Positions 55,783-64,000 of a DNA stretch of 64,000 nt are shown in pieces. Each line of letters begins with the position of its first letter. The first letter of the stretch is position 1. This DNA is from Sphingobacterium cavernae (GTDB lineage: Bacteria > Bacteroidota > Bacteroidia > Sphingobacteriales > Sphingobacteriaceae). Under the pieces are notes generated by a model. That model made no database searches. It was not told the DNA's origin and was given only the letters and a program-made list of their open reading frames with translations. Location: positions 124,001 to 188,000 of the forward strand of contig NZ_VIQM01000025.1 of NCBI RefSeq assembly GCF_008520265.1, written 5' to 3'. The translations under genes were made by a program, and so were the position numbers.

Positions 55783-56565
55783 CTATTTGTTAGGATCAAC
55801 TAACATATAAGTCCCATCGTCTTTCAATTTCGGTAGTCCCATAGCCAAAGATTTGCCATGGTAAAATAAATAAATCCAACCCTCTGGAGCACCTTGTTCC
55901 CAATATTCTTTACGCTTATCGCGCGATGCTCTTCCATCAAAATCATATTTCGCTATGAAATTTTTGAACAACTCTTCGGGCTCAGGCAATACATCACCAC
56001 CAAAGAAGAAATGTTCGCCACCCGTCTCAATATGAAAGGCTTGATGATATTCTGTGTGTCCGCCATTTATTTCGTAACGAATTTCATTATTTACAATTCC
56101 TTCTCCTTCGACTAAAGTCAAGTTTCCAGAACGTTGAATAACATCAAACACTTCCGTGCGGTAAGAAGCTGATTCCGTAGAATATGCATTCTCCCATTCG
56201 CCTCGCTGAATAATATATTCCGCCTCGGGAAATGCTACACGCCCAACTCCATCTTTAAAATCAACCAAACCTCCTGTATGATCTTTGTGCAAATGAGACA
56301 TCAATACGTATTTCACATCTTCAGGTTCAAACCCCAATTTACGAATATTCTGATGAATCAATAATTCGTCCTCATCTGTACGAAATCCGAGTCCTGCGTC
56401 ACACAATATTAAACCATTAGTTGATTCAATCAAAAAAGGATGAACGTGAACAAATAAAGATGCTGGACGGCTTTTAGGATCATCCTTTTCAGGATCAAAA
56501 GGAACAAATTTTTTCGATGCATCAACAGAGAAGGAACCTTCGAATAAAGAATACGCTTGAATCAT
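55783..56565 (-). CDS. Metallo-beta-lactamase-fold hydrolase
   Basis: A 260-residue soluble MBL-fold protein. The zinc motif is SHLHKDHTGG (HxHxDH), with further His in NGGHTEYHQAFHI and the Asp in FFFGGDVLPEP. The final His ligand is likely in YLFYHGKSLAMG. No signal peptide. The substrate is unknown; lactonase-like or thioester-hydrolase roles are typical for this group. The start is ATG 56565, upstream of recJ and divergent from it. Confidence 0.88.
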   Translation of the reverse strand: MIQAYSLFEGSFSVDASKKFVPFDPEKDDPKSRPASLFVHVHPFLIESTNGLILCDAGLGFRTDEDELLIHQNIRKLGFEPEDVKYVLMSHLHKDHTGGLVDFKDGVGRVAFPEAEYIIQRGEWENAYSTESASYRTEVFDVIQRSGNLTLVEGEGIVNNEIRYEINGGHTEYHQAFHIETGGEHFFFGGDVLPEPEELFKNFIAKYDFDGRASRDKRKEYWEQGAPEGWIYLFYHGKSLAMGLPKLKDDGTYMLVDPNK

Positions 56566-56681
56566 TCTTTTATTTTATTGTAAATATGATAGTTAGGAAA
56601 CAACAATTTAATTATCAACTGCGAGTATTAGGTTACTACACCTATAAAATGTATATTTACATACAAATACTGTGCAAAGAT

Positions 56682-58382
56682 ATGCAAAAAAGGTGGGTCC
56701 TAAAACCAAAAAATAATAGCAACAAAGTTAATCATTTAAAAGCAGAACTAGGTGTCAATGACATCGTTGCAAACCTTTTGGTCAGCCGTGCTATTGACAC
56801 CTTCGAACAAGCAAGACTTTATTTCAGACCTTCGTTGGATCATTTACATGATCCTTTTTTGATGAAGGATATGGACGTCGCGATAACCCGCATTGAGCAA
56901 GCAATCGGCAACAAAGAAAAAATCCTAATTTACGGAGATTACGATGTTGATGGCACTACAGCAGTCTCTGTTGTATACAGCTTTTTTCGGGCGTTTCATT
57001 CCCGTATTGAATTTTATATTCCGGACCGCTACGCGGAAGGTTATGGTATCTCCACACAAGGAATAGATTACGCCGCAGAAAATGGCTTTTCGTTAATCAT
57101 TGCGTTAGATTGTGGTATTAAAGCATTGGATAAAATCGATTATGCGAATAGTAAAGGCATAGATTTTATCATTGGCGATCACCATCTACCAGGTGAAAAT
57201 ATTCCAAATGCTGTTGCTGTATTAGATCCAAAGCGCGAAGATTGCGACTATCCGTACAAAGAACTTTCAGGCTGTGGCATAGGCTTTAAAATTATCCAAG
57301 CTTTCATCAAGAAAAACAATATGGATATGGAAGCTGCTTATCAGTATTTGGATTTGGTGGCCGTAAGCATTGCGTCAGATATTGTTCCCATCACTGGAGA
57401 AAATAGGACACTAACACATTTTGGTCTTAAAAAATTAAACACAAATCCATCCGTAGGTTTTAAAGCCTTGATTGATTTATCCACCAACCGCACACGTACT
57501 TTCTCTGTAAATGATATAGTCTTTCAGATTGGGCCTCGAATCAATGCTGCTGGAAGAATTGAACATGCCAAAGACGCTGTGCGACTTTTGATTTCTAAAT
57601 CTGAAGAAGAAGCTAAGAACTTTTCAATGGCTGTCGACGATCAAAACAATCTGCGTAAAGATTTTGATCTGAATATCACGAATGAAGCACTATCCATTAT
57701 AGAAGCGTCTGCAGAGAATCAATTGCGAAAATCTACCGTTTTATATAAATCAGATTGGCACAAAGGTGTAATAGGAATTGTTGCATCGAGACTGACAGAA
57801 AAATATTACCGTCCTACTGTAATTTTAACACAGACAAATGGACATATTGCTGGATCGGCGCGTTCAGTAATTGGCTTTGATTTATACGAAGCATTAAGTG
57901 AATGCAGTGACTTACTCGATCAATTTGGTGGACATAAATATGCTGCTGGCTTGACCATGCGTGAAGAAAACATCAGTTTATTTCAGCAAAAATTCGAAGA
58001 TGTCGTTCAAAAATCCATCAAACCAGAGATGCTTCAGCAAGAAGTAACAATCGATCTGGAAATAGAATTGAAAGATATTGATGGCAAACTTAACCGGATT
58101 TTAAAACAATTTGAACCATTTGGTCCGCAAAATGAAGCTCCGGTATTCATGTCAAAAAATGTTAAAATTCTCGGCTCAGCATATATTGTTGGAAACAATC
58201 ACTTAAAATTGTCTGTTCATCATGAAGGTTCACCAAGTTTTGATTGTATAGCCTTCGGATTAGCCGAACAATTGCCATACATACAAAATCAAAAGCCCTT
58301 CGACATTTGCTATACGATAGAAGAAAACAATTGGAGAGGCAAAAAGAATTTGCAATTAAATATCAAAGCAATCCGATATTAA
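56682..58382 (+). CDS. recJ: Single-stranded-DNA-specific exonuclease RecJ
   Basis: 566 residues from ATG 56682 (MQKRWVLKPK), which fits the family N-terminus; the frame stays open upstream to 56517 but that part overlaps the MBL gene and lacks homology. The DHH phosphoesterase motifs are YGDYDVDGTTAVSVV, IALDCGIKALDKIDYA and IIGDHHLPGEN, with GRIEHAKDAVRLLIS. The DHHA1 domain carries DWHKGVIGIVASRLTEKYYRP, AGSARS and DQFGGHKYAAGLTM. RecJ degrades single-stranded DNA 5' to 3' in repair and recombination. lptB follows after 31 bp. Confidence 0.97.
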   Translation: MQKRWVLKPKNNSNKVNHLKAELGVNDIVANLLVSRAIDTFEQARLYFRPSLDHLHDPFLMKDMDVAITRIEQAIGNKEKILIYGDYDVDGTTAVSVVYSFFRAFHSRIEFYIPDRYAEGYGISTQGIDYAAENGFSLIIALDCGIKALDKIDYANSKGIDFIIGDHHLPGENIPNAVAVLDPKREDCDYPYKELSGCGIGFKIIQAFIKKNNMDMEAAYQYLDLVAVSIASDIVPITGENRTLTHFGLKKLNTNPSVGFKALIDLSTNRTRTFSVNDIVFQIGPRINAAGRIEHAKDAVRLLISKSEEEAKNFSMAVDDQNNLRKDFDLNITNEALSIIEASAENQLRKSTVLYKSDWHKGVIGIVASRLTEKYYRPTVILTQTNGHIAGSARSVIGFDLYEALSECSDLLDQFGGHKYAAGLTMREENISLFQQKFEDVVQKSIKPEMLQQEVTIDLEIELKDIDGKLNRILKQFEPFGPQNEAPVFMSKNVKILGSAYIVGNNHLKLSVHHEGSPSFDCIAFGLAEQLPYIQNQKPFDICYTIEENNWRGKKNLQLNIKAIRY

Positions 58383-59174: not shown

Positions 59175-60692
59175 ATGGCGCTACTCAATTCTATCTTTAC
59201 TTGGATTATGCAAAAAAGAATTCATCAGATTGAACTCTTTATCAAATATCCGCACGATGTACAAGAAGAATGGTTCCAAAATTTAATTTCCGCTGCTGAA
59301 GCAACTGAATGGGGCAAAAAATACGATTACAAAAGTATTTTGACGCCTGAAGAATTTAAGAGTAGAGTACCAATAAGTGATTACGACGATTTAAAAGTCT
59401 ACATCGACCGTATGATAAAAGGCGAACAAAATATTTTGTGGCCATCGGATATCAAATGGTTTGCGAAATCTTCGGGTACAACTGCAGATCGCAGCAAATT
59501 TATTCCTGTCAGTTTAGAAGCTTTAGAAGGCTGCCATTTTCAGGGTGGAAAAGACATGTTAACGATTTATTGCCATAATAAACCTAATAACAATCTATTC
59601 ACCGGAAAATCAGTTGTTATTGGTGGATCTTCGCAAATTAACAATTTTAGTCCCGATTCATATTATGGTGATTTATCATCAATTCTGCTGCGAAATCTTC
59701 CTTCTTGGGCAGAATTCATGCGTACGCCAAATTTAGAAGTCACGCTAAATCCCAATTTTGAAGAAAAAATTGAACAAATCGCTCAACTCACGATAAAAGA
59801 AAATGTGACGAGCCTTGCAGGTGTGCCAACCTGGAATATCGTGATGGCTAAGCGTATTTTAGAGATAACAGGCAAAGAAAACTTATTGGAAGTATGGCCA
59901 AATCTTGAGTTTTATGGTCATGGTGGTGTAAGCTTCAAACCTTATAGGGAACAATTTAAGCAGTTGATTCCATCTGAAAACATGTATTATCTGGAGAATT
60001 ACAATGCTTCAGAAGGTTATTTTGGTATTCAAGATGAATCGGACTCCGAAGATTTATTGTTGATGTTGGACTATGGAGTTTATTACGAATTCCTTCCAAT
60101 GGAAAATTTAGACGATGAGCATCCGAAAACTTTAGGATTACACGAGGTGGAATTAGGTAAAAATTATGCACTCATCATTTCCACCAACGCAGGTTTGTGG
60201 CGTTATAAAATTGGAGACACCATCAAATTTACGTCTCTATCTCCTTATCGTTTCCAAATTTCTGGACGTACTAAACAATATATTAATACTTTCGGAGAAG
60301 AAGTCATAGTCGACAATGCAGATCAAGCATTACATACTGCTTGCAATGCTACCGATGCGATAATCAAAGATTATACAGCTGGACCAGTATATTTCAGCAA
60401 CAAAGATGCTGGAGCACACGAATGGATTATTGAATTTGAAAAACAGCCTTCAGATTTCAATAAGTTCTGTGAAACCCTAGACACGACATTGCGCGAAATC
60501 AACTCGGATTATGACGCCAAACGTTTTAAAAATTTAGCATTGGTTCAGCCCTTAATCCATAACGCACCAAAGGATACATTTTACACTTGGATGAAATCAA
60601 GAGGTAAATTGGGTGGACAAAACAAAGTGCCTAGACTAGCAAATAATAGAGATTATTTAGAGCCATTGCTGAAGCTTATTCATCAAATTTAA
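59175..60692 (+). CDS. GH3-family protein (acyl-acid-amido synthetase-like)
   Basis: A 505-residue soluble protein of the plant-type GH3 (auxin-responsive) family, which belongs to the ANL adenylating superfamily. Motifs are FAKSSGTTADRSKFIPVS (ATP P-loop-like), FYGHGGVSFKPYREQF, YYLENYNASEGYFGIQDE, TNAGLWRYKIGDTIKF and ISGRTKQYINTFGEEVI (hinge). The C-terminal domain contains MKSRGKLGGQNKVPRL. Plant enzymes conjugate amino acids to acids such as jasmonate and auxin; the bacterial substrate is unknown. The stop overlaps the convergent TPR gene by 4 bp. lptB lies 26 bp upstream, so cotranscription is likely. Confidence 0.93.
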   Translation: MALLNSIFTWIMQKRIHQIELFIKYPHDVQEEWFQNLISAAEATEWGKKYDYKSILTPEEFKSRVPISDYDDLKVYIDRMIKGEQNILWPSDIKWFAKSSGTTADRSKFIPVSLEALEGCHFQGGKDMLTIYCHNKPNNNLFTGKSVVIGGSSQINNFSPDSYYGDLSSILLRNLPSWAEFMRTPNLEVTLNPNFEEKIEQIAQLTIKENVTSLAGVPTWNIVMAKRILEITGKENLLEVWPNLEFYGHGGVSFKPYREQFKQLIPSENMYYLENYNASEGYFGIQDESDSEDLLLMLDYGVYYEFLPMENLDDEHPKTLGLHEVELGKNYALIISTNAGLWRYKIGDTIKFTSLSPYRFQISGRTKQYINTFGEEVIVDNADQALHTACNATDAIIKDYTAGPVYFSNKDAGAHEWIIEFEKQPSDFNKFCETLDTTLREINSDYDAKRFKNLALVQPLIHNAPKDTFYTWMKSRGKLGGQNKVPRLANNRDYLEPLLKLIHQI

Positions 60693-61408
60693 TCTAATTT
60701 TTTTAACAGTTGTTGAGCTTTTTCTCCCAGTTGACCTTGTGATGGAATAGTTTTTAATAGTGCAATTGCTTCCTGTTTATTGCCCAATTTTTCCAAACTT
60801 ACGGCTAAATAATATTTCGCCTCATCCTTAAAAACAGAATGACCTTCAACAATAGGTGTTAACTTTTCTTTAGATTCAGCCCAATTCTCCTCACCCAAAT
60901 ATGTCAAAGCTGCATAATACTGATATTGTACAACTTCGGGTTCTGCAAGAATCAAAGAATTTAATATAGCTCTAGCTTGAGAATATAATTTTTCATTATA
61001 TAATTTTACAGCTTCTTCATATTGATTATTTGATTCTTGACCACGAACGATTTCAGATTGCATATCAGGCAACTCGTAAAGGGCATTGTTGGTATTGAAG
61101 AAAAATAAATATCCAAATAAAAGGACACATGCAACGCTTGCAACAGCTAAAAATGGCCTTATTGCCACAAGAAAACGTCTATTCCTTTTGAAACGTACTT
61201 CTGTTTCTGCATGAAACAAAGTCTTTCGTAGATCAGTTTCATTGGATGAAAGACGTCTGTTGATGATTTCATGTACCTCACTTTGCAAATGAACAAGATT
61301 TCGAAAATCAGTGTCTTTCTCCATCAGCTGTTCAAATTCCAGCAACTCCTCTCCTTGCAATTGCCCTTCTATATAATCTTGTATTTTGTCTGCTAAATGT
61401 TCCATCAC
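60689..61408 (-). CDS. TPR-containing single-pass membrane protein, anti-sigma-like
   Basis: 239 residues. The first 75 residues are cytoplasmic in character (MMEHLADKIQDYIEGQLQGEELLEFEQLMEKDTDFR), resembling the N-terminal zinc-less anti-sigma domain of ECF systems. A membrane helix follows near residues 82-105 (FLAVASVACVLLFGYLFFF). The rest holds two or three TPR-like units (YEEAVKLYNEKLYSQARAIL, YYAALTYLGEENWAESKEKL, AKYYLAVSLEKLGNKQEAIALL). It lies 9 bp after the sigma-factor gene, in the same operon, so it probably restrains that sigma factor in response to an envelope cue. The role is inference. Confidence 0.78.
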   Translation of the reverse strand: MMEHLADKIQDYIEGQLQGEELLEFEQLMEKDTDFRNLVHLQSEVHEIINRRLSSNETDLRKTLFHAETEVRFKRNRRFLVAIRPFLAVASVACVLLFGYLFFFNTNNALYELPDMQSEIVRGQESNNQYEEAVKLYNEKLYSQARAILNSLILAEPEVVQYQYYAALTYLGEENWAESKEKLTPIVEGHSVFKDEAKYYLAVSLEKLGNKQEAIALLKTIPSQGQLGEKAQQLLKKLD

Positions 61409-61417
61409 AATTAATTT

Positions 61418-61972
61418 TTAAAATAATCCGCTTTCTTTAATCTTCTTAACCAGTGATGCCATGCATTCACTTTTCTTTTTCCGAAGATAGGCATAGGATA
61501 TTCCCATAGATTCAGCTATTTTCTCTTGATGTTTTTCGACCATACATCTTTTGATTATTTGCTGACAGCTTTCTCCCAAAGTGTTAAGTAAAGACATCAC
61601 AGCATTCTCGCGATTTACTGTTTCCAACATCTCCTCCCAATCTCGAGTTGATTCATCTTCAACATATAATACAGTTTGTTCTAGATTTGTTACCGGCATA
61701 CGTTGATTTTTCTTCAACACATTCAGCCATTTGCGTTTACATACCAAACTTAAGAAAGACCCAAAATTTATAGTAAGCACAAAATCTTTCTTATTTACCA
61801 TATGGTAAATGTCCACTAAAGATTCTTGAAAAATATCGTAACCATCATCTTCTGACCCACTATTTTGCTGAATGAGGGTAACAATTTGTTTAGAATATTT
61901 ATTATATATTAATTGAATACCAGTACTATTATTTTCTTTTAGGTATTGAATATATATTTGATCAATATGCAT
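61418..61972 (-). CDS. Sigma-70-family (ECF-like) RNA polymerase sigma factor
   Basis: 184 residues. Region 2 (LIYNKYSKQIVTLIQ, DIFQESLVDIYHMV and FGSFLSLVCKRKWLNVLKK) and region 4 (LGESCQQIIKRCMVEKHQEKIAESMGISYAYLRKKKSECM, a helix-turn-helix) match extracytoplasmic-function sigma factors. It is the first gene of a two-gene operon with the TPR membrane protein. The region upstream is only 69 bp and is shared with the divergent surface-protein gene, which is the most likely target. Confidence 0.9.
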   Translation of the reverse strand: MHIDQIYIQYLKENNSTGIQLIYNKYSKQIVTLIQQNSGSEDDGYDIFQESLVDIYHMVNKKDFVLTINFGSFLSLVCKRKWLNVLKKNQRMPVTNLEQTVLYVEDESTRDWEEMLETVNRENAVMSLLNTLGESCQQIIKRCMVEKHQEKIAESMGISYAYLRKKKSECMASLVKKIKESGLF

Positions 61973-62041
61973 TTAATTGGCTATTAATTAGTAAATTTAA
62001 TAATATTTCTAAAACTTCATTATCTTAATGAACCTAAAAAT

Positions 62042-64000
62042 ATGATGACCAAAATACTCCCTATATTACTCATTTTTATTTCTAACATGTGTTATGCGCA
62101 AAATGATACTTCAACGACCCCTATCGACACATTTCAGAATAATATAGATATCTACGAACAAGATGGAGTTTTTCATTTTAAGCCGATATTAAGGCCATTG
62201 GTACAGATACCCGGAGGAAGAACACCATACTACAAATATTTATGGGATTTTGGAGACGGACATTTTAATACGCAACCCGAACCTACGCATCAATACGCTA
62301 AACCTGGAGATTACGAAGTCTCAGTATATGCTGTCAATAATTATGATTATGGCCCAAAGCCAAAAAGAACTAAGAAACCTGTCAATAATAAAAAGGCAAA
62401 TACTGCAATAGCCAGTGTGCAAACTAATAATTTTGAACAAAATTTCTTTGCCTCTAATGGAATTTTTCAAATATTCAAACTTTCGGATGCTAAACCTGGA
62501 GAAGACATTCAATTGGTTGTCGGTGTGAATACAAATGGACAAAAAGGGAAAGTTTATATTCTCTCGAATGAAAAAATAGCTGGTCTGGATGGCTTCAAAC
62601 TTGCACACCAAAGCCAATATTATGCAGAAAAGATTGACAGCCTACTACAAAAAGATAACCTTCACAGCATGTGGGCGTCTGTAAAGCAGTCGACTTTTAC
62701 CAAAACAGGAAGTCCAGATTATGGGATTAAGGAAGTTTCCGATTTCAGTTCTAGCCAGCAAGCTGTTAGTTATTTTAAAGAACTGTATGGCGCTTATAAT
62801 TCACTTTCAGCATATGACGTAGAGCCTGCTACTGCTGAGCAACAATTCTCGCTCATCAATTTGGATGTGACCGAAGATATGTTGGTCGACACGAATGCAA
62901 TTGTAACTATTACAGGGGTTTTTATTCCTGAAAATGGAATAGCTAATGTACATCAAGTGGATATCCCTGTAGTAAAATCACACGATCCGAATAAAATGTC
63001 GGTAAGACCTGCGCGCATGAGCTATCGCTTGCAATCGAAAAATAAGACGCTGACTTACAAAGTACAGTTTCAAAATGATGGCGAAGGTGACGCACGTCAG
63101 GTACGTTTAGAAATGTTCTTGCCACCAGAAATACGCAAAGAAACGTTCCGACTGAAATCCCTATATCCACAATGCGATACCTGCGCAACCCCAACTGCAA
63201 TGAGCTGTTATCAATATTATATCAAAGAGAATGGGGCATTAGTCTTTCATTTCAAAGACATCGCCTTACCGGGAACCGCATCTAAAACGTTAACAGATCC
63301 CGATAGCTCCAAAGGTTTTATACTTTTTGAAGTTGATATGGAAAAGAAAAAGTTCAGAAACAAATCTTTTAATTCTTACACGGATATTTATTTCGATAAG
63401 AATCCAGCTATTACGACCAATATTTCCTCTTCAAGATTTAGACAAATCTGGTCGCCAATTATCACTATTGGTACAGCTGCAACATTTGGTACACCAAAAG
63501 AAAACACATTGAAACACCAATTCAAACCGGGTATTCAATTGGGTTTTGGATTAGCCCCAATGGCACCTTATAAAAAAACATTCTGGCAAGCGGAAATCTA
63601 CACGTCCTATTACAGTCGTAACAGTACAACAGGACGAATGGACGAAAAAGGTGTTATCTCCTTCCAAGAAAATGGACGTGATGTGAAATATGAATATCAA
63701 GCTGCTGACAGTACGGTAAATAGAGATTTTTTATCCGTACAATTGCCTGTGCAAATTCGGTATAATATCAATTCTTGGTTTTCAATCGGCACTGGAGTTG
63801 CTTTACGCAAAGATTTTAACACAAAATTCAGCAATTCAAAAAACTATTATTACGCAACCGCACAAGGAACCATCGACAATGTGTATACTGAAAATAATGT
63901 CAATGTGGAAAAAGAGAATAGTGTATTAAAATATAATCCATTTTTAGATATTAATGTCGGAAGAGTTTACATGGGACCGGCAGTAGGTTTTAGACTTTCT
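62042..64000 (+). CDS. PKD-domain surface protein with C-terminal beta-barrel (partial at 3' end)
   Basis: The frame starts at ATG 62042 and is open for 653 codons to the window edge, so the C-terminus is missing. A Sec signal peptide (about residues 1-20) ends at MCYAQ. A PKD domain follows, with YLWDFGDGHFNTQPEPTHQY around residues 60-82 and YEVSVYA. Further on, SHDPNKMSVRPARM is the D-P-N-[DK] motif of a Bacteroidota extracellular repeat domain (DUF7619/DUF11-like), with QFQNDGEGDARQVRLEMFLP. Residues about 490 to the end have alternating aromatic/polar strands (FWQAEIYTSYYSR, FLSVQLPVQIRYNI) as in an outer-membrane beta-barrel. A Cys pair C-D-T-C lies in the extracellular part. Divergent from the sigma-factor operon. 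Confidence 0.8.
   Translation, partial: MMTKILPILLIFISNMCYAQNDTSTTPIDTFQNNIDIYEQDGVFHFKPILRPLVQIPGGRTPYYKYLWDFGDGHFNTQPEPTHQYAKPGDYEVSVYAVNNYDYGPKPKRTKKPVNNKKANTAIASVQTNNFEQNFFASNGIFQIFKLSDAKPGEDIQLVVGVNTNGQKGKVYILSNEKIAGLDGFKLAHQSQYYAEKIDSLLQKDNLHSMWASVKQSTFTKTGSPDYGIKEVSDFSSSQQAVSYFKELYGAYNSLSAYDVEPATAEQQFSLINLDVTEDMLVDTNAIVTITGVFIPENGIANVHQVDIPVVKSHDPNKMSVRPARMSYRLQSKNKTLTYKVQFQNDGEGDARQVRLEMFLPPEIRKETFRLKSLYPQCDTCATPTAMSCYQYYIKENGALVFHFKDIALPGTASKTLTDPDSSKGFILFEVDMEKKKFRNKSFNSYTDIYFDKNPAITTNISSSRFRQIWSPIITIGTAATFGTPKENTLKHQFKPGIQLGFGLAPMAPYKKTFWQAEIYTSYYSRNSTTGRMDEKGVISFQENGRDVKYEYQAADSTVNRDFLSVQLPVQIRYNINSWFSIGTGVALRKDFNTKFSNSKNYYYATAQGTIDNVYTENNVNVEKENSVLKYNPFLDINVGRVYMGPAVGFRLS

Follow-up and report, generated by a model that had tools for sequence, protein, structure and literature searches.

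In this work, we analyzed a 64,000-nt stretch of the Sphingobacterium cavernae genome (contig NZ_VIQM01000025.1), hereafter the window, in whose numbering all positions are given and which ends inside the gene of a barrel protein. This gene belongs to a four-gene unit formed by an extracytoplasmic function (ECF)-type sigma-70 factor, a membrane protein with TPR repeats that is its putative anti-sigma factor (TPRas), the barrel protein itself and, just beyond the window edge, a TPR-CHAT protease. We consider it fairly probable that the unit is a sigma switch released by the caspase-like CHAT protease, which would act as the site-1 protease of TPRas. The directly established elements on which this reading builds are the four-gene unit, the signs of topology in its proteins, the catalytic residues of CHAT, an invariant arginine in the TPRas linker, the covariation between linker and protease, and an RseP-like protease encoded in the genome (255.6 vs. 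147.55 bits).

Results

A previous sequence-only reading of this DNA had described a compact signalling module of three genes. The three open reading frames (ORFs), for a sigma factor, a TPR protein and a large protein, were confirmed, as was the spacing of 69 bp between the divergent start codons of the sigma and barrel genes. Completion of the barrel gene beyond position 64000, suggested in the same reading, located its stop 54 bases past the window edge (64054) and, beginning 60 bases after the window, the TPR-CHAT gene; the conserved unit is thus well supported, but the three-gene version omitted the protease, its most informative part. Loss of gene order in relatives had been named beforehand as one of the observations that would speak against the module, and we found sigma, TPRas, barrel and CHAT in the same order in 24/24 loci (Sphingobacterium, Parapedobacter and one Sphingobacteriaceae bacterium). 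In L006, L019-L021, L023, L025 and L026, the four genes are still together, and the neighbouring lptB and GH3-like genes were not seen; since relatives keep the order also where the flanking genes differ, the arrangement is evidently not due to chance.

At the family level, the barrel profile matched 27 of 151 genomes, and all four genes are present in 21 of 26 neighbourhoods, four of which re-draw loci already among the 24. The incomplete loci comprise one cut by a contig end (L064), three without cognate sigma and TPR genes nearby (L066, L073 and L076) and one without CHAT nearby (L075). Genomes in which the unit is split keep its parts, sigma and TPRas being carried elsewhere in G040, G103 and G118, and CHAT about 20 kb away in G130. 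Outside the family, four of five class-level loci hold the complete unit and the fifth (G289) has sigma and TPRas on another contig; the four genes are also together in two other families, there with an extra lipoprotein gene. In most other genera, sigma and barrel are separated by such an extra lipoprotein-like gene (about 320 codons), and the two examples tested had no Pfam match. Members of this family of about 320 residues, tied to the barrel-CHAT unit outside Sphingobacterium, are found at L061:8093-9064, L072:4908-5879 and L091:11205-12182.

Among the 151 genomes, CHAT was present in 41, TPRas in 45 and both in 37 (Fisher p 7e-23), and barrel and CHAT co-occur in 27/27 barrel genomes (Fisher p 7e-20), both p values ignoring relatedness. 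CHAT, found in 26 of 99 class genomes, is not common background. In G094, which has neither CHAT nor barrel, a sigma remnant with four stops (C16:494219-494584) stands beside the TPRas gene (L188:7427-8155), and here the unit is, as far as its sequence tells, decaying together. The gene layout also bears on an alternative in which CHAT and the barrel protein are the output: sigma would turn on the barrel-CHAT operon, CHAT would act on another protein and TPRas would be relieved by a different signal. The co-directional barrel-CHAT pair, divergent from sigma in all 24 loci, speaks for it, as do the CHAT genes that lack a nearby TPRas (16/56, the other 40 having one within 12 kb). We nevertheless regard it as unlikely, given that the linker type tracks a CHAT residue in alpha-1 (see below), which needs contact or shared selection, that the wider systems have CHAT adjacent to TPRas and no barrel, and that in G019 (L194) CHAT and TPRas lie side by side, with the linker arginine kept and no barrel or sigma nearby.

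As proposed in the sequence-only reading, the sigma factor is ECF-like: it passes the NCBIfam model TIGR02937 (sigma70-ECF; 46.7 vs. a cut-off of 42.9 bits), with TIGR02985 (E 9.5e-14) and Pfam sigma regions 2 and 4 below their cut-offs, and the mean column identity of its alignment (A4, without L009, L011, L012 and L002) is 73%. In TPRas, a single hydrophobic segment (residues 85-103) accompanies a TPR_19 match (30.4 vs. 25 bits). Averaged over 56 sequences, the net charge amounts to +3.4 for the 15 residues that precede this transmembrane (TM) segment and to -1.7 after it; with this positive-inside bias, TPRas should be oriented N-in/C-out and have its TPRs in the periplasm. The anti-sigma-like N-terminus ascribed to it is a candidate on the basis of sigma adjacency in nearly all loci and of weak profile matches, such as that to NF047528 (E 2.5e-5, 23.6 bits vs. 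a cut-off of 200). The AlphaFold2 model of TPRas (25 sequences; mean pLDDT 80.4, pTM 0.54) has a coil (residues 109-123) that links the TM helix to the TPRs, and a Foldseek search with it gave general TPR matches only and none for the N-terminus.

The large protein, for which a PKD domain had been reported, matches PKD, DUF7619 and DUF7849 above cut-off, the latter being present in 8 of 395 class genomes; a sequence search against PDB gave matches to its PKD part only. Its last residue is Phe in 42, Leu in 11 and Ile in 2 of 55 relatives, and the position at the cell surface proposed in the sequence-only reading was not confirmed: a C-terminal barrel with an even strand number would put PKD and DUF7619 in the periplasm. 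The barrel protein may be sensor, partner or output; most likely it is an outer-membrane input, a role as output being possible. That it works as a FecA-like receptor, passing a ligand signal straight to TPRas with CHAT as an accessory, seems to us very improbable: its gene does lie beside the sigma/anti-sigma pair in 24/24 loci, but Pfam scans of the three window proteins detected neither a TonB receptor nor FecR among matches with E of 1 or lower, which also sets the unit apart from FecI/FecR/FecA, CHAT is present in every one of the 27 barrel genomes, and many related systems have CHAT with no barrel match recorded there.

The CHAT domain (PF12770) was matched with E 1.1e-32 (114.1 vs. a cut-off of 24 bits), together with TPRs, in the L014 ortholog, 95% identical to the window copy, and the window genome has a single CHAT match at a threshold of E 1e-10. 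The His681/Cys718 dyad is kept in 83/83 aligned CHATs. The N-terminus is a signal sequence with a lipoprotein-suited Cys that is invariant in the 23 sequences of alignment A1 (without L005, whose frame is broken, and L002, the window's copy; A2 and A3 also lack L002, for which the window's or L014's copy stands in), ordinary-looking signal sequences being found in three f54 relatives. At the C-terminus, a hydrophobic stretch is followed by a tail with a mean charge of +4.0 (53 sequences). The CHAT gene of Sphingobacterium sp. T2 (L005:6434-8945) is broken into two frames close to its catalytic region, by sequencing error or decay.

The best fold match of the CHAT model (pLDDT 82.8, pTM 0.81) is Csx29 (8eex_B, VIA Z 29.3, root-mean-square deviation 6.8, 549 aligned; 8eey_B, Foldseek E 1.1e-14), and it also matches separase (5fby_A, Z 25.1, root-mean-square deviation 3.5, 314 residues aligned), DdvA (8rot_A, Z 21.3) and RgpB (Z 17.0). 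Since TPR repeats alone raise Z, the separase-domain match of the model is to be taken as more telling than the Csx29 score. DdvA, also the top match of the CHAT sequence profile (E 2.3e-9), brings in the possibility that CHAT is a scaffold-like sensor which binds the TPRas linker without cutting it, as the TPR-CHAT part of DdvA may do, and the covariation between linker and CHAT would be compatible with binding too. We judge this quite improbable, as the strict conservation of both His and Cys would be unexpected in a pure binder. Two candidate recognition elements in CHAT were rejected, namely D755 as S1 acid, whose distance from Cys resembled that of separase D2151 but which the Csx29 alignment replaces by Leu759 at that position, and a separase-like ExxR motif (SEIVR), the Glu of which is not kept outside the Sphingobacterium group.

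In the periplasmic linker of TPRas, Arg121 is present in 56/56 TPRas that share a genome with CHAT (about 52 distinct, as L079-L082 apparently re-draw L024, L003, L007 and L004; one of them, L194, lies next to CHAT and lacks an adjacent barrel gene). It is the sole linker residue that never varies, and Met1 and Ala132 are the only other positions of TPRas with the same invariance; the residue that follows is G in 51, S in 4 and D in 1. Six orphan homologs, four from genomes without any CHAT match and two from genomes with CHAT elsewhere, offer a comparison: five have lost Arg121, and Tyr11, Phe24, Asn137, Leu148, Tyr164, Ala201, Leu217 and Leu233 are kept in all six. Four of the six come from one genus group, which reduces the number of independent losses and, because the orphan genomes also lack a cognate intact sigma, the loss of Arg121 tracks the whole system and not CHAT alone.

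At the class level, the TPRas profile matches 69 of 395 genomes, many with several copies. Outside the barrel family, 62 TPRas loci were counted, 12 loci (orphans and barrel-family members) being set aside. A sigma gene adjoins TPRas in 56 of the 62, CHAT is present in the fetched stretch in 43, and 38 have both; their linkers are of the type R[GS] in 31 and LPxxM[SG] in 14, all 14 with CHAT. Some g14 genomes carry a second, shorter or diverged TPRas-like gene beside CHAT (L182:5463-6227, L070:2118-2867 and L071:11522-12136), in which the linker Arg is absent (seen for L182). An ORF of 1105 residues beside sigma and TPRas genes (L142:2001-5318) matches the barrel profile weakly (41 bits) and is possibly a diverged barrel partner.

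When CHAT and TPRas were paired, with CHAT required within 3 kb (L168 and L182 dropped from the first set), two CHAT columns fully separated the linker types: Glu643, found with the Arg type, and Glu683, which follows the catalytic His by two residues and is found with the Met type. Nine further pairs were then added, their "other" linkers sorted into Arg and non-Arg by eye; in the resulting 96 pairs, column 643 is Glu in 78/78 Arg-type pairs and non-acidic in 18/18 others, and no other of the 427 CHAT columns achieves this error-free split of 78 vs. 18. L160, which fits both patterns, counts as Arg-type among the 62 loci and as Met-type in the pair comparison, where the Met pattern has precedence. 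A prediction rule was written down before 40 new loci were fetched, which yielded 35 TPRas with an adjacent sigma gene and 26 with CHAT within 3 kb. The rule held in 19/20 typed fresh pairs (Glu643 in 11/12 Arg-type and a non-acidic residue in 8/8 Met-type; Fisher p 7e-5, ignoring relatedness), and with the other linkers the residue was non-acidic in 4/4 without Arg and as predicted in 1/2 with Arg.

In the model, Glu643 lies in the first turns of the helix at 639-650 (alpha-1), before the strand that carries His681. The S1 specificity regions of clan CD are alpha-1/L1, L4 and L5, and Asp163 of alpha-1 is the ligand of the P1 Arg in RgpB, a gingipain specific for Arg (PMC4357240, excerpt). The Met-type CHATs share with Di-Csx29 the Glu two residues after His (H615/E617; PMC10028731, excerpt), and Di-Csx29 cuts between M and K (PMC11106740, excerpt).

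Discussion

Altogether, the sequence comparisons point towards TPRas as the substrate of the CHAT protease, rather than as a sensor of barrel assembly. Sigma binding, the cut with its position, the trigger and the regulon are inferred parts of the following model. At rest, TPRas would hold the sigma factor at the inner membrane through its cytosolic N-terminus, and the CHAT domain, anchored in the periplasm by its C-terminal helix, would lie beside the exposed TPRas linker. The TPR/CHAT parts would be rearranged by a signal that the barrel protein may relay, in most other genera perhaps with the lipoprotein encoded between sigma and barrel, upon which CHAT would make the site-1 cut after Arg121, with the Arg held by Glu643 of alpha-1. 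An RseP-type protease and cytosolic proteases would complete the breakdown of TPRas, and the freed sigma would transcribe its regulon, to which the barrel-CHAT operon may belong. In a sister group, the linker would be of the LPxxM type and cut between M and S/G, with CHATs that lack the acid.

Several points weigh against this mechanism. Support for the proposed cleavage of TPRas consists of covariation and conservation, and the binding of sigma by the TPRas N-terminus is assumed. Since Csx29 orthologs cut at non-conserved sites, namely between A and S, L and D, or M and K (PMC11106740, excerpt), linker conservation alone marks no site. The Asp with which separase recognizes Arg (D2151, aligned with Csx29 K670; PMC9729208, excerpt) is absent from CHAT, where the position corresponds, via K670, to Leu759, so that CHAT, on this alignment, lacks a separase-type Arg pocket. 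Column 643 was picked post hoc in the 96-pair set and only the fresh pairs are out of sample; these include two misses, L250 (Arg-type linker, residue Arg) and L230 (Arg in the linker, gap), and 6/8 fresh Met-type rows share a DPGLPV-P/A-MS linker with many earlier rows and seem to form a single clade. In a CHAT tree built from 59 of the 96 rows (16 of 53 barrel-family rows), linker type and residue 643 each change four times, together, with only one pair of changes on well-supported branches. Furthermore, G133 has barrel and CHAT and no TPRas match, 19 of the 62 wider TPRas loci have no CHAT in the fetched stretch although 11 of them are still RG/RS, and in L154, L157, L159, L160, L161 and L171 Met-type or non-Arg linkers carry Arg elsewhere.

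The logic of protease, anti-sigma and sigma factor is already known from RseA/DegS, Csx29/Csx30 and CalpL/T/S. In the RseA/DegS/RseP sigma-E cascade, as in the reading preferred here, a membrane anti-sigma factor meets a periplasmic site-1 cut, and an RseP-like protein is present in our genome; DegS, however, is a serine protease, whereas the proposed site-1 protease would be a caspase-fold cysteine protease. To our knowledge, sigma release by TPR-CHAT proteolysis is known only from CRISPR loci. In type III-E CRISPR, the Csx29 protease cuts the Csx30 inhibitor and thereby relieves sigma (PMC10028731, excerpt), and this set of a TPR-CHAT protease, an anti-sigma-like inhibitor and an ECF sigma (CASP-sigma, RpoE) resembles the four-gene unit, down to Csx29 as the best CHAT fold match. 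In contrast, protease and inhibitor are here membrane-anchored with parts predicted to be periplasmic, which makes an RNA trigger unlikely, and the TPRas linker carries a conserved Arg, unlike Csx30, whose sites are not conserved according to the excerpt of PMC11106740. No RAMP protein (PF03787; Cas7-11/gRAMP) was found in the window genome, in which CRISPR arrays were not searched for, and judging from its gene content the four-gene unit is not a type III-E CRISPR system; PADLOC anti-phage models gave 0 matches for the four proteins at E 0.001. In the CalpL/CalpT/CalpS system of type III CRISPR, a protease likewise cuts an anti-sigma and frees an ECF sigma (PMC11417357, excerpt), but it uses a Lon-type protease and a cA4 signal. 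DdvS/DdvA of Myxococcus xanthus, an ECF sigma and its transmembrane anti-sigma, share with our unit an anti-sigma associated with a TPR-CHAT-like part (PDB titles 8rot and 8rw5); in DdvA, however, the CHAT part belongs to the anti-sigma chain (PMC4374960, excerpt), whereas here it is a separate protein and there is a barrel partner.

Searches of the open-licence literature found neither a description of a chromosomal CHAT/anti-sigma system in Bacteroidota nor a periplasmic TPR-CHAT protease that is a separate protein and has a matching linker. It is tempting, if somewhat speculative, to extend the proposal to CRISPR-free sigma switches throughout Bacteroidota, with periplasmic caspase/separase-like TPR-CHAT proteases that follow a two-letter code, in which an acidic S1 residue of alpha-1 goes with an Arg linker and a neutral S1 residue with a Met linker. 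Type III-E CRISPR would then have captured such a cassette of protease, anti-sigma and sigma, RNA recognition replacing the envelope trigger. If this were true, such cascades would have an everyday role and a likely evolutionary source in a form that is chromosomal, membrane-anchored and spread across Bacteroidota. The P1/S1 sequence code would predict which protease cuts which anti-sigma, and functions could be put forward for barrel proteins with DUF7619/DUF7849 as well as for many TPR-CHAT genes that are so far unassigned.

Features of the locus and neighbouring genes

The coordinates of the unit are collected in Table 1. TPRas starts either with the GTG at 61408 or, as its relatives suggest, with the ATG at 61405.

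Table 1 Features of the four-gene unit in window numbering
Feature	Position	Strand	Remarks
TPR anti-sigma protein (TPRas, putative)	60689..61408	-	Predicted cytosolic helical N-terminus, TM residues 85-103, periplasmic linker, TPR repeats
TPRas juxtamembrane linker	61037..61096	-	Predicted periplasmic, candidate cleavage site; residues 104-123, NTNNALYELPDMQSEIVRGQ; Arg121 codon 61043-61045
ECF-type sigma-70 factor	61418..61972	-	184 aa; first gene of the sigma/TPRas pair
Divergent intergenic region	61973..62041		Near the sigma start, a GTAAATTTA-like block that many Sphingobacterium relatives share
Barrel protein gene	62042..64000 in window, ends 64054	+	Signal peptide, PKD 62231-62344, DUF7619 62984-63427, DUF7849 from 63449
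TPR-CHAT protease gene	64060-66600 (L002:8061-10601)		846 residues; co-directional with the barrel gene, outside the window

The intergenic alignment gave no motif common to both sides that would show autoregulation. On the sigma strand, the block near the sigma start has a promoter-like reading, TAAATTTAC, which we take to resemble the Bacteroidota -7 box.

On the other side of the unit, the stop codons of TPRas and of the gene at 59175-60692 (+ strand), presumably a GH3-like gene, overlap by four bases (60689-60692). Further upstream in the window, the first 50 or so residues of the ORF at 56517-58382, which we take to be RecJ-like, look like an over-long start, the true start probably lying further in.

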